From positions 1-64,000 of the IMG/VR virus record IMGVR_UViG_3300037882_002282: 64,000 nt of DNA. The stretch is one strand, 5' to 3'. This DNA is from a virus. Made by a program: the position numbers and the translations under genes. The notes beneath the pieces are model-generated. The model saw only the letters and a list, made by a program, of their open reading frames with translations. It made no database searches and had not been told where the DNA came from. This document shows, in pieces, positions 6,101 through 60,725 of the stretch. Each line of letters begins with the position of its first letter. The first letter of the stretch is position 1.

Positions 6101-9100
6101 AGTGGCACAACTTCGGTTAATTATGGATTAAGGATTGTAAGTTATAGTCAAGGAACACACACCACTGCAAATCTTTGGGGTATCTATATTCAAGATATTG
6201 ATGGTGTTTCAAAGAACTATATTCAACGCGACTTACGTGTAGGTACTACCTCAAATGCTGGTAACTTCCTAGCTAACTTTGCTGGTCATGTTGGACCGCA
6301 AACAGATGTGACCTACGACTTGGGGGCTTCTAATTTAAGGTGGCGTGGTATTTATGGCTCCAGTGGAATTTTTGGTAATAACATTACTGTGGGCGGTAGC
6401 GGTATTCTAGTAGGTAGCATTCGAGATACTTTTGTTCCGTTTGGTAGTGGTGGGGCTCTTACTGGTAATCCTAATCTATGCTTCAATTATGTTACTAACC
6501 GTATGGGTATTGGTAGTGGAGCTAATAGTCCTACTGGCCCCTCTGGTTATTTGCACATTTGGCCTAGTGGTAGTACTTCTCCTTCTGCTTCTACTGGTGC
6601 TCCTATTTGTACTTTTGGTTCTACTCGCCACATTCATTTCTATTCTGATACTAGTGCGAACTATATTTTTAGTGATGCCGATGTTAACGCTCACGAACAT
6701 ATGTACAATGTTATTGTTACTTCGGGTACCAATCTAAATAAAAATTTCTATTGGGCTAGTGTAGCAAATGCTAATAAACGAACAGCAGTATCACTTTATA
6801 ACGAATTATTTACTATTCGCGGTAGTGGTATTGCTGGCTTTAATATGGCAAATAACCAACCCGCTGGTGCATTAGAAATTCGTACATCTGGTACATCTCA
6901 TTATACTCTTTATCTTAAGGGTATCGACGGACAGGTAAATGATTATTTAAGAATTGATGATACAGCAGACGCCTTTGCTACAGAACTATTTTCGGTTGGT
7001 CCATCAGATGTAGTTATAAACGAGGGTGGTGGTGATAGAGAATTTAGAGTTGAATCTTCAGACTTAGCTAGTATGTTGCGTGTTAATGCTACTGGTAATT
7101 GCGTTTCTGTCAATAATAGCGGTCCTACTACAAGTGGTAATATATTTAATACCGTAGCAAATTTCCCTGCTGTTGTTTCTAATTCTACTAACTTCATGCG
7201 TAATATTGACCTGTATGCTACTACGGTAAATATTGCTTCGGGAGTAACTGATGCTGGATATCGTGTGTGCCAATGGAATAATTCATATATTTCCAATTCT
7301 GGTTTCAGAGGAACTTTGACTGCTCAATACGGTATGGTTGTTCAAGGTGGAACATTTGATGGCTCTCAAACCCCTAGTGGCACAATTACCAATGTATATG
7401 GATTTTATGTTAGTCTAAGTAAGGGTACTGCTTGTACACATACCAATGAGTGGGGTATTTTCCAAACTGGTCGCGGCAACAATTACTTCGCCAACGATTC
7501 TCGTTTTGGTACTACTGCTAATGCTGGTTCGTTCACAATTAACTCTGCTGGTCATGTTGGCCCAGCTTTAAATGTTACTTACGACTTAGGTGCTCCCGCC
7601 CATAGATGGAGAAATATCTACGGTAACAGTGGTATCTTTGATAATATCTCTGTAAGCGGTAGTGGTTTAACTATGGTTGTTTCCTATCCAGGGGACGTTC
7701 TAAATAAACAGATTGTGTTTGCTAGTGGCGATAACCAGTTTGCTGGTAATAGTTTACTAAAGTGGGATCATACTGTTCAGCGTATGGGGCTTGGTGTTGG
7801 TAGTGCTACTCCAAGCGGTTTGTTGCATGTAATTGGTACAGCTAATACTTCGCCTTGGGTTTCGCCCCTCGTTAGATTTCAAAGAACTACCAGTTCCAAT
7901 TATATGGATTTTGCTTGTGATGCTAGTGCTAACTGGATTTCTACCAATGAAGCAGGGACTAATCAGAAATCATTAGTCTTTGATGTTGGTTGTTCTGGGT
8001 TCGATATGAATCTGGCTACAACCTTCCAATTCTCTGTTTCTGGCGGGACTACTACTCGTGAGGTTGCTCGTGTACGTGGTAGTGGTATGTTGTGTATCAA
8101 TACAACTAACGGTACAGGAACTATTACAGCAGTAAATCATTCTAGCAACATTGGCATTCCAACTTTATGGTTAAAAGCTATTACTAACCAAAATAGCCCT
8201 CTCATCGAGACTTTAAATACTTCTAGTCAGTCTTTATTCTCAGTGAGCAGTTCTGGTGTGACTGTTAATGGTGGTCATACGGCTCTTAATTTCCGTGTCG
8301 CATCTGATAATAATCCTACACTATTCAATACCAATGGAACATCAGATTATGTCACTATTGGTGGTACTGGTAATCCTGGTGGGTTTATTCTTGTAACTTC
8401 TGGAAATGTTGGTCCTGAAAGTAGTGGTACTAGAGATATTGGTTCTACTACTACTTATTGGAATAATCTCTATGTAAACAATATTTGGTGTCGGAATGTA
8501 AATGGTGGTTCTGTTAGTGGTGGCGGTGGTACTGCTGGATTCCCAGTAACTTCAGGTCAAGTAGCTTTCGGTAGCGGTAGCAGTCTTGTGGGCGATGCTA
8601 ACCTGTATTGGGATAACTTTAATCGTAGATTGGGTATTAATTACGGTACAGCCCCACTACATACTGTATCTATGCGTACTGCTAACAGTACAACTTTCGG
8701 TTTGGTTATCGCTGGTTCTGTTAGTCAAGTACTTGACTTATTCAATGTTGTTGATGCTAGTTCTAATGAATATATTGGTATTGGAGTTGTAGACACAGTA
8801 TTCAACGAACACGCTCAAGATCGTGATTTTAGAATTGAGACAACTGGTAATCCTTATGCCTTTTTTGTGGATGCTGGCTCTGGCTTCGTAAGTATGGGTG
8901 GGGCTTTAAATCCTGGGGCATTTAGCTTAGCTATGAACGGTCATTTAGGCCCCGAAGCAAGCGGTACACGTGATTTAGGTTCTATCGCCTATCCTTTCCG
9001 TGGTATTTATCACGGTACTGGTACTGGTAGCTTCTATGGCGGACTAGCTGAAATTTATGCTAACCCTGCTACTGGAAATATTAGTTTTGCTGGCTCTGGT

Positions 9101-25406: not shown

Positions 25407-25889
25407 CTATTTGTCCTTAAGATATAGTTCAGATAAGTAGTATGGTATGTAGACACCTTTTTCTTTGGCTCTACTACCATAGTAAGGTAGAAAGTTCGTT
25501 TTTATTGCTTGTTTAAAAATCTCTAATAGATCACCCTCTTTCGTCCTCTCTTCTATATTAACTGGTTCTGGTAAAAAACTTAGACATGTTTTATCGCGGA
25601 TTAATTCGTGACCGTCATACAAAAAAATATGATCTTCGCTGTACCCGATAGCACGGCACTTAGCCACGATATCACATATGATTATAAGCCGCACCCCATG
25701 CTCTGGCAACCCCAAAAATGTTGGGTTTCCTGCCTCGCCTATCGTAACCCCCTGTCTTGCCCCTTTTAACACGGTGTAAACCGTAAGTTCTTTTTCTGGG
25801 GTTAATAAACAGTAGGTATCCGAGTTAGCTTTGGTAAGAGATACAAAATATTTATTCTTAAGTAGAAAATTCTGAACCGACTGTTTCAT
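25407..25889 (-). CDS. hypothetical protein between polymerase C-half and ssb (160 aa)
   Basis: Soluble alpha/beta protein starting MKQSVQNFLLKNKYFVSLTK, with hydrophobic strand RLIIICDIVAKCRAIGY. I do not recognise a family. It overlaps the polymerase C-half by 32 bases and abuts ssb exactly, so it is co-translated with replication genes and is likely a replication accessory. Confidence 0.6.
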   Translation of the reverse strand: MKQSVQNFLLKNKYFVSLTKANSDTYCLLTPEKELTVYTVLKGARQGVTIGEAGNPTFLGLPEHGVRLIIICDIVAKCRAIGYSEDHIFLYDGHELIRDKTCLSFLPEPVNIEERTKEGDLLEIFKQAIKTNFLPYYGSRAKEKGVYIPYYLSELYLKDK

Positions 25890-27474
25890 TATATAAATTA
25901 TGTTGCTTGCTTCTCATTTTACTTACAGTTTCCACATTAAAGCTTCCAAACGAGTTATCTCTAGTACCAGTTAGATACAATACCGCCCTTTCTTTAAGTA
26001 GGTGTCCGTAAGTTTCTAGTGCGTCTGGAAATACTGTAATGTTCTTAAGAACCCCAGTTTCGTCTTGAACAACTAGAAACATCATTTTTTGCCCAAGAGT
26101 TTTTCCACGTTTGATTGTGTGTTCCCGAATGGACAATACCTCAACACCAAGAACAATATTCCTATACGTCTCCTTACGATTAGCGAACATATAACAGGTA
26201 CAATTAACTTCTATATCTTCGTAATCCTCTACGTAGGTTGTAGTTACAGCTACTCCCAAGTAATGTTGTTCTGATTCTGTTTTACTATTTCCAGTGTCTT
26301 CTAAACTAATTGGGGGGCGTTTTAAGGTTATCAACAAATCTTGTATCTTCGACGTTCTACTTTTATTAGCGGCACCGCCACCCAATTTCTTGGGAATACT
26401 CAATCTGTCTAACAAATCCTCGAAATCGCCCTCATAATTATTCTTACACCATTCTTTTTCTTTTTCTGTAAGTTGTTGATAGATTCCATACTCGTACTTC
26501 ATCCTAGCTCTTGGTACATCCAAGTAATCTAAGGCACCACAACCAATCAAAGCTTCAAAGTTAGTTTTTACTATTTCATCTGAGAGGAAAATTAGGGTTT
26601 CTAACCAGGACCACTCATTTTGTTTCTTATTCAACTGAGATGTGACGGAAGCCACTCCCATAAGAAGTTTTTCTAAATTAGACTCACCGAATGATCTAAC
26701 AGATTCATAACCGAAATAAATTACTTTGTCTCTAGCCTCAAAAGACCTGTTTAAATGCCTAAGGTCTGGTGGGCGAATATCTATACCGCCTAAGCGGGCA
26801 TCAGTAACTAATTCTTCTAGCTCTGCTTGTGGGTCAATTTTCAAATGCGACTTGGATAACCAGCTTAAAAAAAAGAAATCTGTATACAAAACCTTAATAT
26901 AAGCACAATAATAGCTTAATAAAGCATATGCGATTGCGTGACTACGATTAAAACTATATCTTTGACTTGCTTCAATGTTTTGAAATAATACGTCGGCTAC
27001 TTCTTGTGATATAATGTTATTTTTAACTACTCCTTCCATAAAGTTTAATTTAACTTTAGCCATTAGTTCTGGTATTTTTTTACCGCAAGCTTTCCTTAAT
27101 TCATCGGCCTGTTTTAGATTAAAACCAGCAACTAAACGACAAATTTCCATTCCTTGTTCTTGATATAGAATAAGACCAAAAGTATCTTTTAATACAGGTT
27201 CTAGAACTGGATGAGGATAATCTACTTCTTCCTCCCCAGAATTACGATCTACATAATGTTGAGTTACTGTTTTATCGCCGATATAAGCCTCTAAACTTCC
27301 AGGTCTTATTACACTGATTAGATCAGCAATTTGTTCTATACTTTTAGGCTTAATTTTTTTCGAGTAGCTTCGACCCAGTGGACTTTCCAATTGGAACACG
27401 CCCTTACATAAACCATTGGCTAAAAGTTCCCATACTCTTGGTTCGTTAAGCGGAATATTATCTAACGACAACAT
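25858..27474 (-). CDS. dnaE: DNA polymerase III alpha, C-terminal half (split gene)
   Basis: Corresponds to the fingers and C-terminal parts of DnaE. VWELLANGLCKGVFQLES, DLISVIRPGSLEAYIGD, ILYQEQGMEICRLVAGF, ADELRKACGKK and RYSFNRSHAIAYALLSYY are the fingers motifs. A HhH-like region and an OB domain near residues 420 to 520 follow. It begins almost exactly where the N-terminal half (30719-32575) stops. None of the three catalytic aspartates is present, so it must act with that half. No intein remnant is visible at its start, so joining by protein splicing is unlikely. The two halves probably associate non-covalently. Confidence 0.9.
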   Translation of the reverse strand: MLSLDNIPLNEPRVWELLANGLCKGVFQLESPLGRSYSKKIKPKSIEQIADLISVIRPGSLEAYIGDKTVTQHYVDRNSGEEEVDYPHPVLEPVLKDTFGLILYQEQGMEICRLVAGFNLKQADELRKACGKKIPELMAKVKLNFMEGVVKNNIISQEVADVLFQNIEASQRYSFNRSHAIAYALLSYYCAYIKVLYTDFFFLSWLSKSHLKIDPQAELEELVTDARLGGIDIRPPDLRHLNRSFEARDKVIYFGYESVRSFGESNLEKLLMGVASVTSQLNKKQNEWSWLETLIFLSDEIVKTNFEALIGCGALDYLDVPRARMKYEYGIYQQLTEKEKEWCKNNYEGDFEDLLDRLSIPKKLGGGAANKSRTSKIQDLLITLKRPPISLEDTGNSKTESEQHYLGVAVTTTYVEDYEDIEVNCTCYMFANRKETYRNIVLGVEVLSIREHTIKRGKTLGQKMMFLVVQDETGVLKNITVFPDALETYGHLLKERAVLYLTGTRDNSFGSFNVETVSKMRSKQHNLYNETVGSEFST

Positions 27475-27515: not shown

Positions 27516-28208
27516 TTATTCGACATTAACCTTCTCTGGTTTCCATTTTACCTTCTTAGATGTTCGTCTAATTAGATTCATAAATCTAGTTATTAATTGT
27601 GCTGTTACCTTACAGTCTTCAATTGCCTGATGGGCACCTGGAGTTTCTATACCAACCAACTCACAAATAGTAGTTAACTTAATATTCTGTACACGATTAT
27701 CATCCTCGAAGTGGTACCAAACTAGGTCCATTAAGTCTAATGTGCGGAAACTACTAAATAGAGTGTTATTCTGCCGTTCGTCTTCCCACTGCCCAAACTC
27801 TTTACAAATTCTATCTACAATTACCTTATCAAAATTTAGAACATTATATCCAGCTAAGATAGGAGCGGTATAACTATTCTTCTTGTAATTATATTGTTTC
27901 ACATAATCTGAAAACTGTTTCCAGACTACATTCAATGGGGGAGCTAGGAGAACGTCACGTTCAACGTTATAGGGGTGTCCGCCCGTCTTTTCCTCGCCCA
28001 CACACAACTTATTTACCTTGAGGGCTCCATCCTCTACAGCTTCGATATTAGATGGGCGTATGAGTGAGCAGAATTCCGACCCTGGAATAATATCTAGGGA
28101 ACGTGAATGTATAGCAACCGCTGCCAACTCTAAAGGTTGCGTAGTATATGGGTTAGCCGACGAACTTTCAAAATCTAGGCAGATTATTGTATTATAGTTC
28201 AAAGGCAT
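27516..28208 (-). CDS. DEDD-family 3'-5' exonuclease (epsilon-like, 230 aa)
   Basis: The proofreading motifs are in order: Exo I IICLDFESS (DxE), Exo II AGYNVLNFDKVIVD, and Exo III HQAIEDCKVTA of the DEDDh type. The position between the two polymerase halves suggests that it is the editing subunit of this split PolIII. Its start overlaps the end of the LAGLIDADG gene by 10 bases. It probably lacks the alpha-binding tail of cellular epsilon. Confidence 0.85.
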   Translation of the reverse strand: MPLNYNTIICLDFESSSANPYTTQPLELAAVAIHSRSLDIIPGSEFCSLIRPSNIEAVEDGALKVNKLCVGEEKTGGHPYNVERDVLLAPPLNVVWKQFSDYVKQYNYKKNSYTAPILAGYNVLNFDKVIVDRICKEFGQWEDERQNNTLFSSFRTLDLMDLVWYHFEDDNRVQNIKLTTICELVGIETPGAHQAIEDCKVTAQLITRFMNLIRRTSKKVKWKPEKVNVE

Positions 28209-29089
28209 CTTTTTTTATCTCTAATTTGTTGTGTAGTTAGGTTAAAATGTGTTGCTATATCTCTTACAGATTTTTGTTGTAATAAAAAACTTTCTAATTC
28301 GTTAGTCATCTCTGGTGTCCATAACCTATATTGTAATTTAATTGTAAAAAATCTTTCTTTTTTCCTAGCTAAAGAAAATCCACTATTCTTATACAAAATA
28401 TCTCTTAACGAGAGACTTTCATTAACCCCAAATTGTAAACGAGGGGGTTTCATATCATAATTAATTGTTCCTTTTAAAGAAAGAAGACTCTGTAAATTGT
28501 GTAAAAACTCGACCGATTGACACGAGAATATGGAAACATAGTTCTTGTTATCTTGCTTATAAATACTCCCATCACCATCAAAAAACCCTCTAACATAGTC
28601 TCCCACAAATTCTTCTGGTATATCAAAGTCTATCCTATGTTTTCCAGTTTTGTTTGGAAAAATACTATATTGAAGTAGAGAGTTTTTAATTTGTTTTGAG
28701 AATATTCCTATTTTGGATGAATAATATTTTTTACCAGTTCGTTTGTCATCGTGTTCGTAATGATATATATTACCATCTGGATAAATTTTAGATAATATAT
28801 ATTCTAAAACACATTCGTCTTTCCTAGCAACTTCTACGTATAAGTAGGCTCTTTTCTTGTGAACATTACCGTCCGCAGTTATGAACCCAAGAATGTAAGC
28901 CATGTCCGACGACCAACTATCAAAAAAATCGTGGGCCACATTGTTTCTAGACCAATATATTCCAAATTTCTTAAGATATTTTCTAACTATAGCTGGATGA
29001 CAGTTAAATTCTTTGGCTATCTCTTCTGGTCGCTTTTCACGAATAATCTTTTCTAAATACTCTTTGGTTAGAGGAATGGCTTTGGGCAT
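28199..29089 (-). CDS. free-standing LAGLIDADG homing endonuclease (296 aa)
   Basis: Two LAGLIDADG helices are clear: AYILGFITADGNV and DYVRGFFDGDGSI, each with the catalytic acidic residue. A helix-turn-helix precedes them (RPEEIAKEFNCHPAIVRKYL) and a second follows at the C-terminus (VRDIATHFNLTTQQIRDK). It stands alone, not in an intein. The ATG at 29089 has AGGAG at correct spacing; a start farther upstream would lie in the promoter. It sits between the halves of the polymerase gene and has its own phage-type promoter (29126-29138), so the insertion may have caused or exploited the split. Confidence 0.9.
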   Translation of the reverse strand: MPKAIPLTKEYLEKIIREKRPEEIAKEFNCHPAIVRKYLKKFGIYWSRNNVAHDFFDSWSSDMAYILGFITADGNVHKKRAYLYVEVARKDECVLEYILSKIYPDGNIYHYEHDDKRTGKKYYSSKIGIFSKQIKNSLLQYSIFPNKTGKHRIDFDIPEEFVGDYVRGFFDGDGSIYKQDNKNYVSIFSCQSVEFLHNLQSLLSLKGTINYDMKPPRLQFGVNESLSLRDILYKNSGFSLARKKERFFTIKLQYRLWTPEMTNELESFLLQQKSVRDIATHFNLTTQQIRDKKRCL

Positions 29090-29125
29090 TTCTGACTCCT
29101 TTTGGTTATACGTATAGACTTCTAC

Positions 29126-29138
29126 TATACTATACACC
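29126..29138 (-). promoter_or_regulatory. phage-type promoter for LAGLIDADG gene
   Basis: Reads GGTGTATAGTATA on the - strand, one mismatch from the consensus, 37 bases before the ATG. Confidence 0.65.
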
Positions 29139-29152
29139 AAAACTTACCCACT

Positions 29153-30718: not shown

Positions 30719-32575
30719 TTATTGACTGGCATTTATTAACCTTAGTGCCTTTCCTAACTTATCTAAACTAGCTACAGCCAAACAGTCTACTTTACATAAT
30801 CCTGCCGTTTCGGCAGACTTTAAATCCCAACCACAAATTTGTTGTTTGCTTTTAGAGTCATAAATCATTGGGGCGATATCTACTAGAGGACGATCACAAA
30901 TGATAACTCCAGCAGGGTGACGAGAAGAATTGCGTTTTGTCCCCTCTAACTTCATAGCGTGCTTAAAATAGACGCCTAAATCTCCCTCACACTTTGGTTC
31001 AAACGTTTCACGATCAACCTCACAGAATTGGGCTAGTTTGTCAGTACGGTTCTGCAATGCCCAACGAATAATAGAATGATCTTCAATTTCTTGAATTTCA
31101 TCAATTACTTCGGCTTCACCAGGAATGAACTTACTTACTTCATTAGATAGATCGAAGGAAACATCATAAGCTCTAAATACATCCTTAAGAGCCCCCCGAC
31201 CCATCATTCTGCCGTATGCGGCAATTTGACAAACATTATTTCTACCGTATTTTTCTCTAATGTATTCTACTACGCCCTCTCTTGCACTAACCTCAAAGTC
31301 TACGTCGATATCTGGTAAGGCAACTCTATCGGGTGTGTTACGACCATCATTATAGAAACGTTCAAAAATTAGATTATACTTAATGGGGTCAACACGAGTA
31401 ATCTTGGTTAGATAGGATACGAGACACCCGCCAGCACTACCTCTACCTGGACCCGTTAAGATACCCTGGTTTGTGGCCCAGTTTACATAATCTTGCACTA
31501 CTAGAAAATAAGGACTGAGCCCAGCTTTTTCAATAACGGAGAACTCCATCTCCATTCTATTTCTATATTCTGGGGTATCTAAATTCTTTTCTGCTATGCT
31601 ATCATTACATAACTTACGCAGGTATTCATTTGAGTTTAGCCCATCAGGACAATCAAACTTGGGCATAAACGGCTTATTGGTAATATCATAGTTATCGCAC
31701 ATAGACGCGATAACAAAAGTATTCTCTATTTCCTCTTGTGTATTACACTTGCTCATTCGTTCGTGCGATGGAATATAAAATTCACCGTGTCCGCTGAAAA
31801 ATGCCCTGAACGGAATATCTAATCCTTGTGCCAAACCACGCTTTAATTCTGGCACACTCTTTTTAATAGCAGACGACAGAATGATTTGGTGAAGCTCAAT
31901 ATCATCTGGTTTGGTATAGTGGCTGTCAGCAGTTGCTACTACTTTCTTTCCGTTCTTTTTTGCCCAGTTTCGTAAATTATCTCCTAATACTTGGCAGATG
32001 GGAGTATTTTTAGCATCAATAGTTTGGATTTCTACAAAGAAGTTATCCTTACCAAAGATATCTTCGTGTAAACCAATCGACTGTTCTACTTCCTTTTCCC
32101 AATTTTGTCTAACTTTATTATTTTCGTCCAGTAGAACATCAGAGACGGTACTACCTAAATGCCCCGAAAAAGATATTAAATTCTTATTTGAGTTTAATTC
32201 ACCAAGTCGTTTTAGGCTAATTCTGGGTTTGTAATAATAGTTTTGTGGTTTGTTGGTTTCATCTATAATCTTTAATAGAGTTTTCCATCCGTTAAAATTT
32301 TTGGCTAAAACTACAAGATGAGATAGATTCCTATTTTCTGGAGTTTGGTCAGATGGGTCATTTTTACATATATACAATTCTACCCCTTGAATGGGGATAA
32401 TTCCTTCTTTCTTACAAGCAAGCTGGAATTCTACTGAACCGTTTACTCCACCGTGGTCCGTCAAGGCAATATGAGTTTGTCCTAATTCTTTTGCTCGTTT
32501 AGCTATATCAGTTGGCTTACTTAATCCATCGAGCAAGCTGTAGTGGGAGTGCTGGTGACAGTTAATATACATCAT
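30719..32575 (-). CDS. dnaE: DNA polymerase III alpha, N-terminal half (split gene, 618 aa)
   Basis: Contains the PHP domain (HQHSHYSLLDG at residues 7 to 17, TDHGGVNG near 40), the palm with GPGRGSAGG (375 to 383), and the catalytic aspartates in LPDIDVDF (D422, D424) and KVDCLAV (D597). It ends just after the third catalytic Asp, where a full DnaE would continue into the fingers domain found at 25858-27474. There is no splicing motif at its end. The start overlaps the HNH gene as ATGA. Host-type DnaE is about 1160 residues; the two parts here sum to 1156. The natural reading is a two-subunit polymerase. Confidence 0.9.
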   Translation of the reverse strand: MMYINCHQHSHYSLLDGLSKPTDIAKRAKELGQTHIALTDHGGVNGSVEFQLACKKEGIIPIQGVELYICKNDPSDQTPENRNLSHLVVLAKNFNGWKTLLKIIDETNKPQNYYYKPRISLKRLGELNSNKNLISFSGHLGSTVSDVLLDENNKVRQNWEKEVEQSIGLHEDIFGKDNFFVEIQTIDAKNTPICQVLGDNLRNWAKKNGKKVVATADSHYTKPDDIELHQIILSSAIKKSVPELKRGLAQGLDIPFRAFFSGHGEFYIPSHERMSKCNTQEEIENTFVIASMCDNYDITNKPFMPKFDCPDGLNSNEYLRKLCNDSIAEKNLDTPEYRNRMEMEFSVIEKAGLSPYFLVVQDYVNWATNQGILTGPGRGSAGGCLVSYLTKITRVDPIKYNLIFERFYNDGRNTPDRVALPDIDVDFEVSAREGVVEYIREKYGRNNVCQIAAYGRMMGRGALKDVFRAYDVSFDLSNEVSKFIPGEAEVIDEIQEIEDHSIIRWALQNRTDKLAQFCEVDRETFEPKCEGDLGVYFKHAMKLEGTKRNSSRHPAGVIICDRPLVDIAPMIYDSKSKQQICGWDLKSAETAGLCKVDCLAVASLDKLGKALRLINASQ

Positions 32576-48906: not shown

Positions 48907-51900
48907 TTAGAATAAATCGCATTTTCCGCCAGCACACGCGATCTCATTAAGTGGTTTAGTATCATCTTTGCTCTCGATAAGTAACTCATAATCAACTTCT
49001 TTATATTCTCTACTAAGATCAACAAACTTTTTCCAGTTATAAACATCTTTGAGGCAATAAGTCATTTGTTTTAGATCGCCCTCAAAATAACGTTCGGCAA
49101 ACCTAAAAGCTTTGTTTAAAAAATGTAAGTGAGTACTGTTTGACTCTTTGTTGCCTAAAATGATATCACACGCTGCCCACAAATCGCCCCCAAACGTATT
49201 TAATGCGGCCTCAATAATTCCACTACAAAAGATGCCACCATCACCATATAGGTTAATAATCTCTTTGGGTGTGAAGACGGCTGTAAATGGAGCTTGTGGA
49301 TAATCCTTATCTCCACTCTGAGGCAATAGAGATACACCAGTTAGAAATTTCTTATTATGATAAATGAAATCTGCTACAGCATCCCACTCATCTTCTTTGA
49401 CTACAATAGTGTTGCTTACATTATGATTCAACCAGGGTTGAACACACAAGTCTCTGTTGGTGCCAGTTAACACCCAGTTTTGTTGTGTTGACACAACAGC
49501 TTCTAATAACTTAACTGCTGATACCTGATTTTTAAGCTTAGCTCCATCTGGCACTTCTACCGTAAAGGAAATAACCCCATCCGTTCCATTAGCACTCCAA
49601 ACCGAATCCTCACACGCAAACGGGTTTATAGACTCGAAGAACTTATATGGAGCTTCGTTCTTGTTAGATTGTACATTACGAATATATCGTTTAGCGTGGT
49701 GTGGATGGATGCCACTACTAGTACCTAAAATACAACTACTAGTTCCCTCTGGTTTAATACAAGTAGTTCGTGCTGCTTGTCTAATACCAATCTTGGCTGC
49801 TATTTCCTTATTTACAGCCTTGACTATTTTAGCCCCAGCTTTCTGAATCCTCTCATCTAGGGTAATTTCTGGCTTTTCCATAACGCCAGTCATAGATACT
49901 CCAATCAAAGCTTCTCGTCTTACAATTCTTTCTGTTACTTCTCCAAGGTATGGAAATGAGTCAAATCCAGCTTGTAGTGTTCCAATAATAGCAGCAGCTT
50001 TACAAGCCTCATAAAAGTCCTCTTCGTTAGTTACTTTGGAGCAATTAATCGTGCTAAGATTACACATTTCCCAGCCAGAATTGCCTTGCTCGTCATAACC
50101 GTAAAGTCCGATTTCGACACAATTTGATACATCACATCCTTGAGTCCAGTATGTATGACTTTTATTATCTACCGTAATATCGAAAACCTCTTCTCTAGAA
50201 ACTAGCTCAACTTTAATAATGTCATAATTAGTTTTAGGATTTCTGTTTTCTGGTAGAGAAGATATAATCTTACTAAGTTTCTCGTTTTTGTATGATTGTA
50301 AGAATCCAACTATCCGTTGGAACTTGCTAGCATCAGTAGAGATATTTAAATCATAACTTTCTTTGCAAACATATTCGCCATTTTCAAACTTAACTTTAGT
50401 AGACTTATTTGTTGTAAAGTATGATCTGATACCAACTGAAGACAACATCATTTGTACGTCTTCAATTAACCCCAACGATGATGACTTTAAGGTTACTCTG
50501 TTTCCGCAAATACTACCATTCGCACTGTATAAACCACGTAGAAAACCAACAACTTTACCACAATCGCCCGTTAAAAATCTGTTAGGAACTCTACGCTCGT
50601 ATGTATATGGTAATTCAGAATTGGTAATAGTAGTTTGAACTTCAAAAGCGGTATCGGATAAACCTGGGCGATATGTTGAAATTAGAGAACTAATTTTGTG
50701 ATTAAAATAATCTTGGTCATTTTGTCCGATATGTAGATAAACTAAGTTATTCGACGCTTTGTGAACAGCACCATCTCCAATTACCAATCCGTCAATAATA
50801 TCTTGTTCACTAACTACACCCATTTCTGGGAATAAACCAGGAATAATATCGATAGATTCTGCATTACCAACTTCTACTTTAACTCCATTAGAAACAATAC
50901 GATGTTGCTCTGTTCCATAAAAAATACCAGCGGTTGTTGTATATTTATATACGTTTTTAGTACCAGTTGACCATTTGTTTACTACTTGGGTAAACCCTTC
51001 CTTACTCCAAATGTAGTCACCAATTTGAACATCTTTTAATTCTCTAATACCTTTTTTAGTAAGTAATTTAGCCCATCCTGGTTGACAAGGGTTTGTTAAA
51101 GTTTCTTTATCTTCGCACCAAAAGAAACCAGGTTCGCCACAATCTCTGGTAGACTGGATAATCTCTTGGAATTGTTTCTTTGAAACTTCACTTCTTACTA
51201 AAACTACAGAATTATTTGATCTACCCCTTTGTGGATTAGTATAGAACCAATTACCAGTTTTTGCTTTCATCATCTCTTCATCTTCAAGAGAGAATAAGCA
51301 AATAGTACTAGACCTGCGAACACCACCAGAAAGCACTGCATCACTAGCGTGCATGATAATATCATAACAATCAATTGGTCTTAAAATGCCACCATAATCG
51401 TTAGCAACATCGTCCAATATGGTTTGAATTTTTTCTAAAGCTCGTTTAAGAGGTTCTGGGCCTGGAGCGGTTCCACTACAATCGGAAAGGGGGGAACCTT
51501 CTGGGCGAATTTCTGAGTAGTCGAAATCTACAAAAGAATAAGCATACTCAGGAAAGATTGCGTTTTGGGGCGAAAAATAAGATGAGATTAAAACTCCTAG
51601 AGCATCACCCCAACCTTCAATACTATCTGGTACAACAAACACTTTCTCGTCCCGTATAATTTTACTACGGTGCATTTGTGGAAGTTTGGCAACATGGTGT
51701 TTCTGTACGGAAAACCCAGTTCCACAACCGCACAACAAAAGAAAAAACGCTTCCTGAAAAAATCTTAATCTATCACAGTATGAAGACGTACAATTATAAA
51801 TTTTCTCATTGCGTTTTAGAATAGGTCGTCCACCAAATTGCAAGGCTCTTTGCGAGCCGAGAACCCGCTTTTTTGCCATCTGATCGTATGCCCAATTAAT

Positions 51901-52047
51901 ATCCTCTTTAAGCTCAGGATATTTCTGGAGCATCATATTCCTAATTCTATCTACACTTTCTTTCCATGTTTCTCTACGTTTCTTTTCTTCGTTATATCGG
52001 GCATACCTTGAAGTGAAGGTGTATTTTTGTAGCTCTTTAAGTGACAT
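48907..52047 (-). CDS. adenosylcobalamin-dependent ribonucleotide reductase (class II, RTPR-like) with intein, 1046 aa
   Basis: Monomeric B12-dependent reductase resembling Lactobacillus RTPR: VLGSQRALQFGG, the Cys-rich N-terminal region, GGVRRSSTICLFS, and the C-terminal CAGGKCDLF redox cysteines. An intein of 322 residues (50122-51087) interrupts the active site between TNP and CVEIGLYG, so splicing restores TNPCVEIGLYG with the catalytic thiyl cysteine as the first residue after the intein. The spliced enzyme would be 724 residues, near the usual size. It converts ribonucleoside triphosphates to deoxy forms without a separate radical subunit. The window shows no cobalamin-synthesis genes, so the host must supply B12. 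Confidence 0.92.
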   Translation of the reverse strand: MSLKELQKYTFTSRYARYNEEKKRRETWKESVDRIRNMMLQKYPELKEDINWAYDQMAKKRVLGSQRALQFGGRPILKRNEKIYNCTSSYCDRLRFFQEAFFLLLCGCGTGFSVQKHHVAKLPQMHRSKIIRDEKVFVVPDSIEGWGDALGVLISSYFSPQNAIFPEYAYSFVDFDYSEIRPEGSPLSDCSGTAPGPEPLKRALEKIQTILDDVANDYGGILRPIDCYDIIMHASDAVLSGGVRRSSTICLFSLEDEEMMKAKTGNWFYTNPQRGRSNNSVVLVRSEVSKKQFQEIIQSTRDCGEPGFFWCEDKETLTNPCQPGWAKLLTKKGIRELKDVQIGDYIWSKEGFTQVVNKWSTGTKNVYKYTTTAGIFYGTEQHRIVSNGVKVEVGNAESIDIIPGLFPEMGVVSEQDIIDGLVIGDGAVHKASNNLVYLHIGQNDQDYFNHKISSLISTYRPGLSDTAFEVQTTITNSELPYTYERRVPNRFLTGDCGKVVGFLRGLYSANGSICGNRVTLKSSSLGLIEDVQMMLSSVGIRSYFTTNKSTKVKFENGEYVCKESYDLNISTDASKFQRIVGFLQSYKNEKLSKIISSLPENRNPKTNYDIIKVELVSREEVFDITVDNKSHTYWTQGCDVSNCVEIGLYGYDEQGNSGWEMCNLSTINCSKVTNEEDFYEACKAAAIIGTLQAGFDSFPYLGEVTERIVRREALIGVSMTGVMEKPEITLDERIQKAGAKIVKAVNKEIAAKIGIRQAARTTCIKPEGTSSCILGTSSGIHPHHAKRYIRNVQSNKNEAPYKFFESINPFACEDSVWSANGTDGVISFTVEVPDGAKLKNQVSAVKLLEAVVSTQQNWVLTGTNRDLCVQPWLNHNVSNTIVVKEDEWDAVADFIYHNKKFLTGVSLLPQSGDKDYPQAPFTAVFTPKEIINLYGDGGIFCSGIIEAALNTFGGDLWAACDIILGNKESNSTHLHFLNKAFRFAERYFEGDLKQMTYCLKDVYNWKKFVDLSREYKEVDYELLIESKDDTKPLNEIACAGGKCDLF
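50122..51087 (-). mobile_element. intein with LAGLIDADG endonuclease in class II reductase
   Basis: Residues 321 to 642 of the reductase. It starts with Cys (CQPGWAKLLTKKGIRELKDV) and contains the block B region around TEQHRIVSNG. It has two LAGLIDADG helices (GLVIGDGAVHK, GFLRGLYSANGSI) and ends at VSN just before the +1 Cys. The penultimate residue is Ser where His is usual. The insertion point is the catalytic cysteine motif. Confidence 0.92.
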
Positions 52048-55451: not shown

Positions 55452-55714
55452 TAAGTTCTCCCGCAACATTTTTTAACAGGTGGAGTCTGAGGTTGATCGC
55501 TCAATATCTCAAACATATTAGAAGGCACGGCGTAAGCGGCTGCTGTATCAGAAAAGTATAGATCGGATACTTCGCCCCGATTTACAAGATCAGTAACAGC
55601 AACAACTTCGCCCAGATGATAAGTTTTATCTTCTGTTACATCAACTAAATTACCGTCCACAACTTGTGTGTCATGAACGGTAATAAGTGTTTCTTCTCTA
55701 AATTGGATTCTCAT
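55451..55714 (-). CDS. hypothetical protein (87 aa)
   Basis: Small beta protein (MRIQFREETLITVHDTQVVD, then EVVAVTDLVNRG) with a Cys-rich tail (PVKKCCGRT). It abuts both neighbours. Possibly a virion or assembly protein. Confidence 0.5.
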   Translation of the reverse strand: MRIQFREETLITVHDTQVVDGNLVDVTEDKTYHLGEVVAVTDLVNRGEVSDLYFSDTAAAYAVPSNMFEILSDQPQTPPVKKCCGRT

Positions 55715-56064
55715 TATTCTACGCTAGCCCACACGTCCTCGATATCACCATCGTCAGCATCTAAGGCAGCAGAAATTAGAGCTTCCTCTACTCTATCTCC
55801 CCTATGCCTAAATTCTTGACGGCCCATTGCATCCTTCAAATGACGCCTTAAAGCTAAACGCTGCCCAAACTTAGGGCTAGCGGCAATATTCTTAACCGAA
55901 GCTGAAGATGTGCCTCTACACTCTTGAATCTTTTTAATGAGTTCTAAGATCAATTCAGCAAAAGCAAAGAATGTTGTGGGATCAAGTGCTTCTTGTTTTT
56001 CACTATCGCTAGAAGCGTAATGATCTACGAATTTGCCAGTTAAGTTTTCTAGTGCCTTGTCCAT
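55714..56064 (-). CDS. hypothetical protein (116 aa)
   Basis: Helical protein (PTTFFAFAELILELIKKIQE) followed by a basic region (GQRLALRRHLKDAMGRQEFR) and acidic tail. Abuts both neighbours. No family recognised. Confidence 0.55.
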   Translation of the reverse strand: MDKALENLTGKFVDHYASSDSEKQEALDPTTFFAFAELILELIKKIQECRGTSSASVKNIAASPKFGQRLALRRHLKDAMGRQEFRHRGDRVEEALISAALDADDGDIEDVWASVE

Positions 56065-56432
56065 TAGTAACCCCCTTGTAGTTGTTGAGCGTTGTTATCA
56101 TAGTTATAGTCAGCCATATTCAAGTTTTGAACACGTTCACGAAGATTTCTGTTCTTAACTTTTTGGCGTTGAACAACTTGTTTTGAACGAATTTTTTGTT
56201 TAACGTTTTGTTGCTGCACTTGAGCATACTGAACATTTTGCTGTAAATTAAAATTCTGGTTATAACTATTTTGGTGTTGAGCCAAAACAGGAATAGGTAA
56301 ATATGCGGTCAGTTGTTGTCCAGCACTATAAAGCTGTTGGACTTGCTTAACCTGCTTAATATTGTTACGACAACCAGTTCCGTAAGCAAAACTAGGTACT
56401 AGTAAAAGAGTTAGAACGATTAGAATTTTCAT
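56064..56432 (-). CDS. exported Gln/Asn-rich protein (122 aa)
   Basis: Signal peptide MKILIVLTLLLVPSFAYGTG, followed by a Gln/Asn/Val-rich body (NSYNQNFNLQQNVQYAQVQQ) and a basic stretch. One Cys lies after the signal region. Probably exported or periplasmic. Next to the heme genes and likely co-expressed with them. Confidence 0.6.
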   Translation of the reverse strand: MKILIVLTLLLVPSFAYGTGCRNNIKQVKQVQQLYSAGQQLTAYLPIPVLAQHQNSYNQNFNLQQNVQYAQVQQQNVKQKIRSKQVVQRQKVKNRNLRERVQNLNMADYNYDNNAQQLQGGY

Positions 56433-57107
56433 TTATGAGCCCCATTTAAGTTTGTTATATTCCTTGATGTAATCCACGTCTCCCTTAGTCGGTGGAGGTT
56501 GAGTTTCTGGGCGTTTTGGCATATCACCAGATTCCATTTGGTCATGAATTTTCCTCATAGCCAACTCATCTTCCCATACGACGACATTTTCACCATCGAA
56601 AATTTGGAATCCGCCACTTTTTCTGTCTTGGTTATGACATTTCTTACAATTATATTTTGTAGAAAGTAATTCTTTAATATGGGTCCGATGGGCTAAAAGT
56701 TTTGCTTCTAGCTGTTCATCTGGACCACCTAAATCCCCGCCACCATCTGATTTACCTCCGTCCCCGCCACCAGTTTTGCCTTCTAGCTTGTCGAGCAAAT
56801 CAGATAAAGCCCCTTCTAGATTGGCAATTCGTTCATCTTGTTCGTCGATTCTGGCTTCCAGAGCCTTAATTTTGGCCTGATCGCCTACAGAGTAATAGTA
56901 TCCCAAACCCAAAGAATCTACAGGCAATCCAACATAATATGGATTATAGGGGTTATACTCTACAAATCGTTTTTCTATTTTGGCGAAATTTTGTTGGGGT
57001 GCAGCTATAAATTGTTGTTTTTGGACCACACGTTTAGGGGGTGTTGCAAAAATAGCCCCACTAAACATCATAACAACAATGAGTCCGCCTACTAATTTGC
57101 TTTTCAT
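56433..57107 (-). CDS. exported c-type cytochrome-like protein (224 aa)
   Basis: Signal peptide MKSKLVGGLIVVMMFSGAIF, then a coiled coil (residues 80 to 110), a Gly-rich linker (112 to 128), and a C-terminal heme domain with CKKCH (154 to 158). A possible axial Met lies in ESGDMPKRP, and a late GDVDYIKEYNKL helix follows. The tail order matches the small c-type cytochrome domain typical of planctomycete proteins, which supports a heme role, but no covalent heme is proven. It may carry electrons or act as a redox sensor after export. Driven by the promoter at 57137. Confidence 0.6.
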   Translation of the reverse strand: MKSKLVGGLIVVMMFSGAIFATPPKRVVQKQQFIAAPQQNFAKIEKRFVEYNPYNPYYVGLPVDSLGLGYYYSVGDQAKIKALEARIDEQDERIANLEGALSDLLDKLEGKTGGGDGGKSDGGGDLGGPDEQLEAKLLAHRTHIKELLSTKYNCKKCHNQDRKSGGFQIFDGENVVVWEDELAMRKIHDQMESGDMPKRPETQPPPTKGDVDYIKEYNKLKWGS

Positions 57108-57136
57108 TAAATGTCCTCACATAAGTCCCCACCATA

Positions 57137-57146
57137 ATTATACACC
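57137..57146 (-). promoter_or_regulatory. phage-type promoter for 57107 gene
   Basis: GGTGTATAAT, exact consensus with TT before it, 30 bases before the ATG. It lies immediately past the 3' end of the other heme gene. Confidence 0.75.
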
Positions 57147-57150
57147 AATT

Positions 57151-58884
57151 TTAGTAAGCGGCTGCTATCACGTCGCTCTTGAGGACATACCCCTTTTTAC
57201 CATCTGCAACAACTTCAATCCAATAATTTCTAACATTACTGTCTTTAGGTTCGCCCGAGAACTGTAATCTTTGCCCCTTCTTTAGTTTACCTATTGTATT
57301 ATTTCCGCTCTTTAGATCAGTAGATTCAGCAACTACTTCTAGTAATACAACCCCACCGTTTCTAATGTGGTTTGGAATATCGTCAAATTCGATTATTGTT
57401 GGTTTATAATCTTCTGTATCTGGATTAGTTGTTACTTTTTCTACCAGTTCAGTAATTGGTTTATTGGCGGCTAATTCAGGATCAGGTTCAGGCTTCGGGG
57501 CGGTATCTACGCCAACTTCGGGCGAGGGAAGGTTATGAATATATAATTGAGCTTGTTGGTATTCTCCGTTTTTTACCTGTTCCCATACTTCGCGGGGGAT
57601 AGTACCACCATTAGCCATTTTTGCTAATCTAGCACTAGGAGCCCTTTTCAATTTTTCTTTAAGAATATCTACTGGAACACCACATTCAATAGATGCTTGA
57701 TCTGGAGTAATGTTTCTATTATAGAACGAAATAATTTTTTGTAGGCTCTCTAAGTTTTCCTTAGGAGTTCGCCCATTAACTTCTTTCATTACTCTTTTGT
57801 AAGCTAATTCGTCCTCTTCTACATAAGAATTAATTTCACTAAGATAGAATCTTTGACGATATAAACTATCCTTATCTAATCCAGACAAATTAAGTTCTAC
57901 ATTAGTAGCCAGAACTTGTTTGATTTGATCGTTAATTTTATTAATTCCGTTTTCATGGCAACGAACGCAGGACCAAGCTGTACGTACCCTAAAATCATTA
58001 GGGTCTTGTACATCTCTAACTAGACCAGGATCACCAAATTCTACAACCTCATTATTACCATTAACCAGCAAATAAACCTGTAGCCCCGCAAAGTTTGTAC
58101 AGATAATTTCGCCCGCACTTCTTTTACTTTCTGTAGCTTTTAAGTCTTCTACATAATCGAAGTTTGGATCATCAAAAGTTTCCCAATAATAACCAATCTC
58201 TGTTCTTGCACGCGAGAGTAATCTATGGTGTCTAGATACTTCTGAATCGTTTGTGTCTACTACGCCACCACGCTCTAGTTGGAATTTACGGATTTTCGCA
58301 ATGTCCACCCCCCAGAAATTACGGAATTCGTCGAGGTTCTTAAGTTTCTTGCCATAGAGCAAGTTATAGTACATTAACTCTTTGACGCCCAGATCAAGTT
58401 GACTCTGGGCATCTAGACCGTATTTGATAAACCAATCCGCCCTGACGAGAGAGTTACCAGACTGGTACCTAATTTTTTCGTATACTTCTTCAGGAATAAA
58501 TGGCAAACGAATATATGGTTCAGCATCATTCGTAGACCGTTCCCAAGCGTCTTGGGTCCAGTTATAGTTACGAATATCTACCCTGTAGAGAGTGTCTGTA
58601 ACTTTGTCTGGTTGTTTAATAATCAAACCAGAGCTAAGCGAATTGACAACAAAGGATAGGTCTTTACCGATATTTTTATTTAGATCGGGCGGTAAAGTAT
58701 AAGAAGTAAAATATTTTAAGAAGGGTCTTTGTCCTGGTGGGAAGCGTTGTAAATCTGTTAATACAGCTTCCAACTCCGCATCTAGCGTAGGAACAATTTC
58801 AACTTCCTCTACAACCGTTTCTGTTTCCTGAGCATTACCCAATTGGGGCAATGCTATAACCAGGAATATCATACAACTTACCAT
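57151..58884 (-). CDS. exported c-type heme protein with SH3 domain (577 aa)
   Basis: Start at 58884 gives signal peptide MVSCMIFLVIALPQLGNAQ, though the overlap with the protease gene then spans 50 bases. A long middle region (RADWFIKYGLD, VSRHHRLLSRARTEIGYYWE, GLQVYLLVNGNNE) leads to the heme motif CVRCHENG (residues 306 to 310 in this numbering). The C-terminal SH3-like domain is about 65 residues. By memory, this order is close to large secreted cytochrome proteins of Planctomycetes. A database comparison is needed. It sits between the protease gene and the second heme gene. Confidence 0.6.
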   Translation of the reverse strand: MVSCMIFLVIALPQLGNAQETETVVEEVEIVPTLDAELEAVLTDLQRFPPGQRPFLKYFTSYTLPPDLNKNIGKDLSFVVNSLSSGLIIKQPDKVTDTLYRVDIRNYNWTQDAWERSTNDAEPYIRLPFIPEEVYEKIRYQSGNSLVRADWFIKYGLDAQSQLDLGVKELMYYNLLYGKKLKNLDEFRNFWGVDIAKIRKFQLERGGVVDTNDSEVSRHHRLLSRARTEIGYYWETFDDPNFDYVEDLKATESKRSAGEIICTNFAGLQVYLLVNGNNEVVEFGDPGLVRDVQDPNDFRVRTAWSCVRCHENGINKINDQIKQVLATNVELNLSGLDKDSLYRQRFYLSEINSYVEEDELAYKRVMKEVNGRTPKENLESLQKIISFYNRNITPDQASIECGVPVDILKEKLKRAPSARLAKMANGGTIPREVWEQVKNGEYQQAQLYIHNLPSPEVGVDTAPKPEPDPELAANKPITELVEKVTTNPDTEDYKPTIIEFDDIPNHIRNGGVVLLEVVAESTDLKSGNNTIGKLKKGQRLQFSGEPKDSNVRNYWIEVVADGKKGYVLKSDVIAAAY

Positions 58885-59719
58885 CAACAAAGATGATAGT
58901 TGTTTTAGTTGTACCAGTCGGAGGATTTGGAGTCGGAGTTGGATCGACTGGTGGAACTGGATTAACTGCTTTACCATAAAGAGCGATAATTCTGTTGATA
59001 TCTCCAGCTTGGGGCTTAGCGACACCTGGAGCATAATAAGGTGCCATTAGGTCGCCAGATTTTCTAGAATGGTCTAATCCTAAGTTGTGTCCAATTTCGT
59101 GAGCGAGTACATTTACTCTCTGTACACCCCTTAAATTAGAAAGTGTAACCCACGTTTCATCATCATCACTTACATTACCTAATTGACTATCAGAACCGTT
59201 GGGCAGATAAGCATAAGCTAATGTTCCAGAAGGACCATCAAACCCGCCCGCTCTACCCCGACCGATACTAAATACAATATCAGCCGATGAACTATTTGTT
59301 CTAGTAAACTTTAAATCAGCTACTTCAGCCCAATAAGAAAAAGCAAGGGCGATTTGTTGTGAGTCAAGTTCGTCGTTTCTCGCCCCATTTAATCTAGATA
59401 CATTTTGTTTAATGTAGTAGGTTAAATTTTTCTTCCGCCACTTACCTTCTTCTACTCTATTGGCTAGGATATCAGGATGACCACATCTAGGTGTAGTCAA
59501 CATCGCCCTAACAGTTAATCTGTCCAATCCTTCTTCAGAATTGATATGGAAAAATTCTCTAAATTGTTCAACAGCTTTAAAGAAATCCGAAACTGTGAAC
59601 TTATCAGTCTTAATTAGATAGCCATAGTATTTTAGATATTCTATAGCTTTAAAAATATCCGCGATAGTAAGGTCACTATTTTTTAGCTCAGCTAAAATTC
59701 TTGGAATAATTGATGCCAT
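58835..59719 (-). CDS. pro-matrix metalloprotease with cysteine switch (294 aa)
   Basis: Residues 17 to 75 form a helical propeptide resembling a peptidoglycan-binding-like domain. PRCGHPD (77 to 83) is the canonical cysteine-switch motif of matrix metalloproteases. The catalytic zinc site HEIGHNLGLDH (207 to 217) and the Met-turn LMAP follow at the expected distance. A Pro-rich linker and short tail end the protein. No signal peptide is seen, so it may be virion-borne or exported by another route. It would cut proteins outside cells, after removal of the propeptide. AGGGGGG precedes the ATG, with the promoter 45 bases upstream. Confidence 0.9.
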   Translation of the reverse strand: MASIIPRILAELKNSDLTIADIFKAIEYLKYYGYLIKTDKFTVSDFFKAVEQFREFFHINSEEGLDRLTVRAMLTTPRCGHPDILANRVEEGKWRKKNLTYYIKQNVSRLNGARNDELDSQQIALAFSYWAEVADLKFTRTNSSSADIVFSIGRGRAGGFDGPSGTLAYAYLPNGSDSQLGNVSDDDETWVTLSNLRGVQRVNVLAHEIGHNLGLDHSRKSGDLMAPYYAPGVAKPQAGDINRIIALYGKAVNPVPPVDPTPTPNPPTGTTKTTIIFVDGKLYDIPGYSIAPIG

Positions 59720-60056: not shown

Positions 60057-60254
60057 TTAGTCTTTCTTACCTAACTCTAAAGCTGTAAGTAAAATATTAC
60101 CAATGCTACCGACAGCAAGAAAACATCCAGCCAGAATAATTAAACCAGCTTTTTCTGTTTTAAAAGCTTGGTCAGCAGTTCCCCAAGCTGATGCCATAAA
60201 AATGTATAATACTGAGCATACTATTTGGAATTGTCTTAGAGCGTGATATTTCAT
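60057..60254 (-). CDS. small membrane protein (65 aa)
   Basis: Two hydrophobic segments (residues 9 to 24 and 36 to 56) around a polar loop. Its own phage-type promoter lies 26 bases before the ATG. It may be a holin or membrane accessory. Confidence 0.55.
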   Translation of the reverse strand: MKYHALRQFQIVCSVLYIFMASAWGTADQAFKTEKAGLIILAGCFLAVGSIGNILLTALELGKKD

Positions 60255-60289: not shown

Positions 60290-60300
60290 ATTATCTAAAG

Positions 60301-60372
60301 TGGCGACTACTGGAGTTGAACCAGTTTTTGCACGTAATGAGCGTGCTTAGATTACCGAACCTTCCAGTCGCG
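60301..60372 (-). tRNA. tRNA-Met(CAU), initiator-like features
   Basis: Cloverleaf with anticodon loop CTCATTA on a GCACG/CGTGC stem, T-arm ACTGG-TTCAACT-CCAGT, and acceptor CGCGACT/AGTCGCC. Position 1 to 72 is C opposite C, a mismatch, and 11-24 can be A-U; both recall bacterial initiator tRNA. The GGG/CCC anticodon-stem pairs of initiators are missing and the D-stem is weak. CAU could also be a tRNA-Ile2 precursor. CCA is not encoded. Confidence 0.75.
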
Positions 60373-60649: not shown

Positions 60650-60652
60650 GAG

Positions 60653-60725
60653 AGCCACGAACAGGCATCGAACCCGCAACCCGCTGCTTACAGGGCAGCC
60701 GCTCTACCAGTTGAGCTACCGTGGC
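60653..60725 (-). tRNA. tRNA-Thr(UGU)
   Basis: Full cloverleaf: acceptor GCCACGG/TCGTGGC, D-arm GCTC/GAGC, anticodon stem GCTGC/GCAGC, loop CCTGTAA giving anticodon UGU, and T-loop TTCGATG. Position 33 is C where U is nearly universal, which is odd. No CCA is encoded. Its 5' end is 7 bases past the promoter element. Confidence 0.9.

Follow-up and report, generated by a model that had tools for sequence, protein, structure and literature searches.

Genes at the locus

We examined a stretch of 64,000 nucleotides (hereafter the window) from the 69,833-bp viral record IMGVR_UViG_3300037882_002282, in which two adjacent genes encode predicted exported proteins with a single CXXCH haem attachment motif each. 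The first-pass annotation of this DNA had described such a pair, and both minus-strand open reading frames (ORFs) are indeed present with hydrophobic N-termini. The larger protein is referred to here as P2 and the smaller as P1; together with a third exported protein they make up a three-gene cassette with the following features.

57151-58884, minus strand: P2, large CXXCH protein, predicted exported, 577 residues; signal, modelled core with helical N-terminal part, five-stranded sheet with CVRCH and helical C-terminal part, and C-terminal SH3b domain
57955-57969, minus strand: CVRCH haem attachment site of P2, residues 306-310, kept in 30/30 relatives
56433-57107, minus strand: P1, small monohaem cytochrome c, predicted exported, 224 residues; signal, VPV/YYY stretch, helix, Gly-rich linker and C-terminal cytochrome domain
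56634-56648, minus strand: CKKCH haem attachment site of P1, residues 154-158, marked by CXXCH conservation
56517-56522, minus strand: Met-Pro of P1, residues 196-197, probable distal haem ligand, conserved in the P1 alignment
56064-56432, minus strand: third protein, predicted exported, Gln/Asn/Val-rich, 122 residues, directly after P1

The length of P2 was counted from the ATG at 58884, while the open frame extends to 59034. Export of the cassette proteins was judged by N-terminal hydropathy, with maximum 10-residue values of 2.77 for P1 and 2.94 for P2; the P2 signal has no basic residue ahead of its hydrophobic core. As a bare pattern CXXCH is no more frequent than expected by chance, with 4 matches to the DNA of the complete record and 4 for a reversed control pattern; among window ORFs of at least 60 residues it is found in two only, the neighbours P1 and P2. 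The motifs of this pair rise above chance because they are conserved in relatives, the gene order is shared and the genes are under purifying selection. A zinc-binding role for the two motifs was considered as well; neither protein resembles a 73-residue ORF of another viral locus (L007) whose CRKCH has the look of a DnaJ-type zinc motif.

The small cytochrome P1

The sequence places P1 among the class I monohaem cytochromes c, with a His/Met-type signature. A profile of 17 viral P1s matched solved cytochromes in the PDB, namely the c subunits of cytochrome bc1 (the best match, E 6.5e-7) and cytochrome c-552 (E 9.5e-4). When 24 P1 domains (16 viral, 8 bacterial) were compared with Pfam at E <=0.01, Cytochrome_CBB3 matched 20 and PSCyt1 matched seven. 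The CXXCH is present in 24/24 aligned domains, as is the Pro of the Met-Pro, with the Met kept in at least 90% of rows. The Met-Pro is located 31-43 residues past the haem His in 17 of the 18 viral P1s, that of the window included, which bears out the earlier suggestion of a candidate Met ligand in the small protein.

The large protein P2

P2 is very probably a c-type haem protein. Its CXXCH is present in all 30 aligned relatives, and no other His or Met is kept in 15 or more of the 30 rows; Arg221 and Arg431 are found in 30/30, and Tyr172, Tyr271, Trp151 and Trp234 in 29/30 each. No Lys, the residue cross-linked to haem in cytochrome P460 proper, is conserved in more than 17/30 rows. A 27-row P2 profile returned no significant relative and no known haem family among solved structures, and Pfam, which has no haem model for the P2 family, names in this protein only the C-terminal SH3 (SH3_3, E 6.2e-5, below cut-off). 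The proposed c-type haem identity stands for P1. For P2, the first refuting outcome named in the first-pass annotation applies at the sequence level, where there is no haem-family similarity beyond the CXXCH; what counters this is confined to the conservation of that motif and a modest fold match. Two stretches of P2 are concerned in the structural comparisons.

57154-57351, minus strand: SH3b domain at the C-terminus of P2 (residues 512-577), which VIA-align matches to pneumococcal LytB with Z 9.3
57919-58344, minus strand: stretch of P2 aligning with cytochrome c'-beta/P460, residues 181-322, from VIA-align over 996 chains

When a model of the whole of P2 was compared with the PDB and with viral structures, the match list was filled by the SH3b domain, which is not general across the P2 family, and the core was therefore folded alone. 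The resulting model (predicted local distance difference test 91.4, predicted template modelling score 0.91) has five strands ahead of the CXXCH. The top Foldseek chains for this core, 996 PDB chains in all, were re-aligned with VIA-align; the first entry was Thermus cytochrome c'-beta (Z 6.0 over 104 residues at 3.7 angstrom), followed by Methylococcus cytochrome c'-beta (Z 5.1) and Nitrosomonas cytochrome P460 (Z 4.1), with all others at Z 3.7 or below. The aligned stretch, residues 152-293 of the core, holds five strands and ends 12 residues past the CXXCH. As described in a review (PMC11928373), the c'-beta/P460 fold is a five-stranded antiparallel sheet, unique to the two families by DALI, and the c'-beta haem is five-coordinate; the lack of a conserved second ligand in P2 fits such a five-coordinate haem. 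The modelled P2 core shows a weak but specific likeness to cytochrome c'-beta/P460. We treat this modestly supported likeness as a working model of how the haem may be seated in P2 and not as membership of that superfamily.

Viral distribution and gene order

A tblastn search of annotated phages with P2 recovered a relative in one of them, the 595-kb genome LR756511 (28.6% identity), where a small exported CXXCH protein comes next as well. A search of the same phages with P1 gave no match, and the LR756511 P1 as query recovered only itself. Single-protein scans of viral contigs with either protein, and of genome contigs with P2, returned nothing; the P1 alignment was too variable to serve as a scan query, and scans with P2 alignments succeeded. 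In IMG/VR these identified first 3 and later 19 P2 loci, for a viral total of 22 loci in 20 records of 19-595 kb (the 19 from IMG/VR, the window and two in LR756511). Structure alignments leave out L001, L006 and L002 (loci are numbered with the prefix L); alignments A7 and A8 and the tree leave out L021 and L022 (near-duplicate and cut) as well as L033, L034, L035 and L038.

P1 is located directly downstream of P2 at 18/22 viral loci, with spacing that ranges from a 4-bp overlap to a 148-bp gap. The earlier remark that c-type cytochromes are unusual in phages thus understates the case, as the pair constitutes a conserved phage cassette. An exported third ORF follows P1 at all 18 of these loci, 17 of them independent (L020 and L021 are near copies); as background, the weakest hydropathy value among these third ORFs is passed by 76/427 ORFs when the first start is used and by 123/427 when any start is allowed. 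Both haem proteins are under purifying selection, with ratios of nonsynonymous to synonymous substitution rates (dN/dS) of 0.08-0.11 for P2 in four close pairs and 0.14-0.22 for P1 in three of the four, the fourth being saturated.

A short form of P2 at L006 (6725-7903), L012 (7842-9038) and L015 (7845-9032) pairs with an exported C39-like peptidase, and at L012 and L015 a gene that by eye is ThyX-like comes after this pair. Two of the three short-P2 loci sit in records that also carry a full cassette (LR756511 and contig 3300014202_001521).

Bacterial relatives

The P2 domain was also found at 14 bacterial loci, 13 from genome contigs and one on a plasmid, the plasmid search with P2 having matched in Neorhizobium only. 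In 11 of the 14 ORFs, one or more extra CXXCH motifs lie N-terminal to the P2 domain; a twelfth fusion (L026) has an extra cytochrome domain shown by Pfam, and the two remaining loci are truncated where their contigs stop. Inside the P2-domain ORF of four bacterial loci there is a match to the phage P1 profile (E 1e-7 to 3e-5). Partners classically show up as fused genes in one lineage and as neighbouring genes in another, and that P1 and P2 are partners is accordingly well supported by gene order and bacterial fusion. The three bacterial fusions that were scanned have DUF4384 at the C-terminus, a domain listed in a review (PMC7475262) among the accessory domains of cyanobacterial orthocaspases.

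In the unrooted P2 tree a single branch divides the 20 viral from the 10 bacterial sequences with support of 100/99; phage P2 is thus no recent acquisition from the sampled bacteria. P2 is rare in bacteria, with 3/387 Verrucomicrobiota and 3/398 Pseudomonadota genomes positive, each count including the centre genome that was picked for having P2. The idea that the proteins are domesticated host surface proteins was therefore half right: bacterial relatives do exist, but the phage P2s form a separate deep group and are split from P1 rather than fused to it.

Neighbouring proteases

A protease gene is found near P2 at 19/22 viral loci, and in the window it takes the following form.

58835-59719, minus strand: M10 matrixin-type metallopeptidase, Pfam E 4.9e-31, with HEIGHNLGLDH and a PRCGHPD switch-like motif

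This gene overlaps the start of P2 by 50 bp, and its product scores 108.2 bits against Pfam (cut-off 24) and contains the HExxHxxGxxH zinc motif. Relatives of it lie beside P2 at four other loci; none was found in the annotated phages. PRCGHPD stands ahead of the catalytic domain in the window and PRCAHPD in the L007 matrixin (6989-7900), motifs that recall the cysteine switch found in matrix metalloproteases of animals. The viral protease types comprise M10 (5 loci, including the window), C1 papain-like (8, one partial), C39-like (5) and S8-type (1), with weak Pfam scores for some of the C1 and C39-like members. A phage-origin metzincin pair is reported from Listeria (PMC8235301).

Near the bacterial fusions the protease is a caspase, with a caspase-domain gene at 13/14 loci. 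Caspase C14 (Pfam PF00656) was above cut-off in 6/6 genes tested, and a profile built from these six Pfam-confirmed genes matched at 7 of the other 8 bacterial loci. At L002 and L027-L038, a fused multi-haem cytochrome accompanies one to four caspase-domain genes. Because the protease types are unrelated, the link between haem proteins and proteases would, if real, be a functional one.

Interpretation and alternative explanations

With moderate confidence, we favour a reading in which P2 and P1 form a split, exported two-haem redox system, borne on a three-gene phage cassette, that acts with a protease in the host envelope. The host cytochrome c machinery would mature both proteins, which would then work in the periplasm or cell wall during infection. 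The haem of P2 may sit in a c'-beta/P460-like five-stranded sheet with its distal side open, a modestly supported feature of the model, and could there bind a small ligand (nitric oxide (NO), O2 or peroxide) or act catalytically, with P1 passing electrons to or from it. The pair may act with the co-encoded protease as its bacterial relatives may with the caspases they are associated with, and could handle or sense oxidant or NO while the protease remodels the envelope, resulting in protection, release or exclusion.

Several observations weigh against this reading. The window protease has no clear signal (hydropathy 1.56) and may therefore not share a compartment with P1 and P2; no protease was found near P2 at L009, L010 or L019, and the C39-like protease of L023 and L025 lies past the cassette on the opposite strand. 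The three short P2s, which form one branch on the tree, are without an adjoining P1 (the fourth locus without one, L022, is cut by a contig end), and the P1 of L011 has no Met-Pro. With respect to the fold, Foldseek with the P2 core returned nothing below E 0.5, and the leading Z of 6.0 is in the range where the tool itself warns of a common arrangement. Kinship of P2 with P460 by sequence was tried and failed: hhalign against 16 P460 sequences gave 22-38% probability, no better than the 22-35% of the P1 control, over an alignment of only ∼20 columns around the CXXCH.

Two live rivals, a plain metabolic and a lytic role, have to be set against the split redox system. In the first, which we regard as possible if on the unlikely side, the pair consists of auxiliary metabolic genes that supply electrons to host respiration or draw them from it, or remove NO or peroxide, so that the infected cell stays energised, and the protease is incidental. 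P1 is an ordinary electron-transfer type of cytochrome, the P2 core resembles the NO-binding c'-beta, and viral norB and nirK have been published (PMC8115048). A protease at 19/22 viral and 13/14 bacterial loci is nevertheless hard to call incidental, and P2 fits no metabolic enzyme family.

The second, a lysis or egress cassette, seems to us unlikely. Here the protease would attack a protein-rich wall in the manner of an endolysin, and P2, P1 and the third protein would disrupt the outer layers in place of spanins, the haems being structural or a source of damaging radicals. Proteases do adjoin the cassette, one of them (L013) with weak similarity to a peptidoglycan-binding domain; the SH3b of the window P2 is like those of cell-wall hydrolases, and small membrane ORFs are found near some cassettes (window 60057-60254, L007 6716-6979, L014 7679-7891). 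Against this, Pfam and PHROGs named neither a holin nor a spanin in the window genes scanned, the SH3b is confined to some P2s, and the same haem pair occurs with caspases in bacterial relatives, which are not known to have a lysis role.

It is quite improbable that the proteins are structural components of the cell surface or virion, with a vestigial haem and with exported low-complexity parts that cover the infected cell or the particle. Both P1 and the third protein have exported Pro-rich stretches of low complexity, which would suit this idea, as would a baseplate J-like gene close upstream in the L009 and L022 contigs; a vestigial haem is contradicted by the CXXCH in 30/30 P2 and 24/24 P1 sequences, the kept Met-Pro and a P2 dN/dS of ∼0.1, and Sec-type signals are at odds with cytoplasmic virion assembly. 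Finally, that the contigs come from bacteria or plasmids and were misclassified is very improbable, since, although a terminase search found none in the window record fragment and the terminase profile matches only 7/19 other records (and also rings in 11/14 control genomes), the window's replication and nucleotide genes fit phage families, LR756511 was deposited as a phage genome and has a terminase-like match (E 6.9e-43), the viral P2s make up one side of the tree and P2 is present in so few bacterial genomes.

The split redox system could be part of something wider, an extension that we put forward tentatively and consider rather unlikely: haem proteins and proteases may work as a single system in bacteria and phages alike. 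Through its redox state or a bound gas, a P460-like haem connected to a cytochrome c would control or aid a secreted or released protease, which would be a caspase in bacteria and a metalloprotease, papain-like, C39-like or subtilase enzyme in phages. Phages would have taken over and split this cytochrome-protease switch and re-armed it with proteases of their own, the target being the host envelope.

The shared haem pair beside proteases in phages and bacteria points to an unstudied haem-protease partnership and ties haem chemistry to proteolysis in a concrete way that can be tested. To our knowledge the function of bacterial caspases is largely open. If real, the partnership would account both for the bacterial loci and for the presence of its parts in phages, and would add P2 as a haem-protein family that Pfam does not model.

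Other genes of the records

The window record is considered phage-like because its replication and nucleotide genes match phage families; these comprise a split DnaE-type polymerase, helicase, primase, UvsX-like recombinase, ribonucleotide reductase and dCMP deaminase. The polymerase matches only distant phages, at 34% identity or less, and gives no clue to the host. It is encoded in two ORFs (25858-27474 and 30719-32575) with an endonuclease gene in between (28199-29140), a possible intron or intein insertion, and the ribonucleotide reductase (48907-52047) has a LAGLIDADG/intein-like insert. A 3541-residue ORF at 116-10741 has no PHROGs match. Genes for tRNA-Met (60300-60372) and tRNA-Thr (60652-60725) lie just upstream of the cassette, and one further ORF lies behind it.

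55714-56064, minus strand: 116-residue ORF after the cassette, no family match reaching cut-off

ORFs that look like it by eye also come after the cassette in L007 and L010. Upstream of the cassette, ten phage loci carry a conserved exported family of ∼250 residues (A12; L001 9589-10344, L009 6677-7534, L017-L020 and L022-L025); two members scanned gave no Pfam match, and the A12 profile had no match in the PDB. An ORF of RRXRR/IscB-like look, again judged by eye, is located just upstream of the cassette at L010 (297-1295).

Comparison with known systems

In the literature searched, which covered few subscription papers, neither a phage cassette of this kind nor the bacterial cytochrome-caspase loci were described, which is not proof of absence; the main text of Al-Shayeb 2020 (PMC7162821) has no mention of cytochrome, planctomycet, Gemmat, heme or PVC. 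Redox genes in phages are already known; a conserved exported cytochrome pair, mostly beside a protease and in phages of very different size, was not found in that literature.

The C-terminal domain of P1 shares with class I monohaem cytochromes c (Pfam Cytochrome_CBB3 PF13442, PSCyt1 PF07635) the CXXCH, a Met-Pro ∼35 residues further on, a C-terminal end rich in helix-like sequence and the profile matches to solved cytochromes. Unlike them, P1 has a long, exported, linker-rich N-terminal part and is encoded beside P2 in phages, and unlike PSCyt1 members the window P1 scores below the PSCyt1 cut-off (18.4 and 20.2 bits, short of the 22-bit gathering threshold). PSCyt1 is a planctomycete cytochrome family, and the likeness of the small protein to planctomycete cytochromes raised in the first-pass annotation is no more than a lead. 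With the cytochrome P460/c'-beta superfamily (Pfam PF16694), which supplies its top three structural matches, P2 may share a five-stranded sheet followed by CXXCH, as modelled, and it has no conserved second axial ligand; it differs in having no sequence match, a modest Z, additional helical regions to either side and in some cases an SH3b, which in turn resembles those of cell-wall hydrolases.

The closest counterparts of the pair are bacterial proteins of the Neorhizobium petrolearium WP_227705619.1 type (annotated only as 'c-type cytochrome'), in which P1-like and P2 domains occur in one chain, also beside proteases; the bacterial versions differ in being fused and in having caspases (C14) rather than M10, C1, C39 or S8 enzymes as neighbours. 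The proposed prokaryotic switch would be analogous to cytochrome c-triggered caspase activation, with no homology claimed. The nearest published theme is that of viral norB and nirK (PMC8115048), where phages likewise encode redox proteins of a respiratory type. These differ in being host-like enzymes encoded on a single scaffold, whereas P1 and P2 form an exported cassette in very different phages, with P2 standing apart from its bacterial homologues on the tree.

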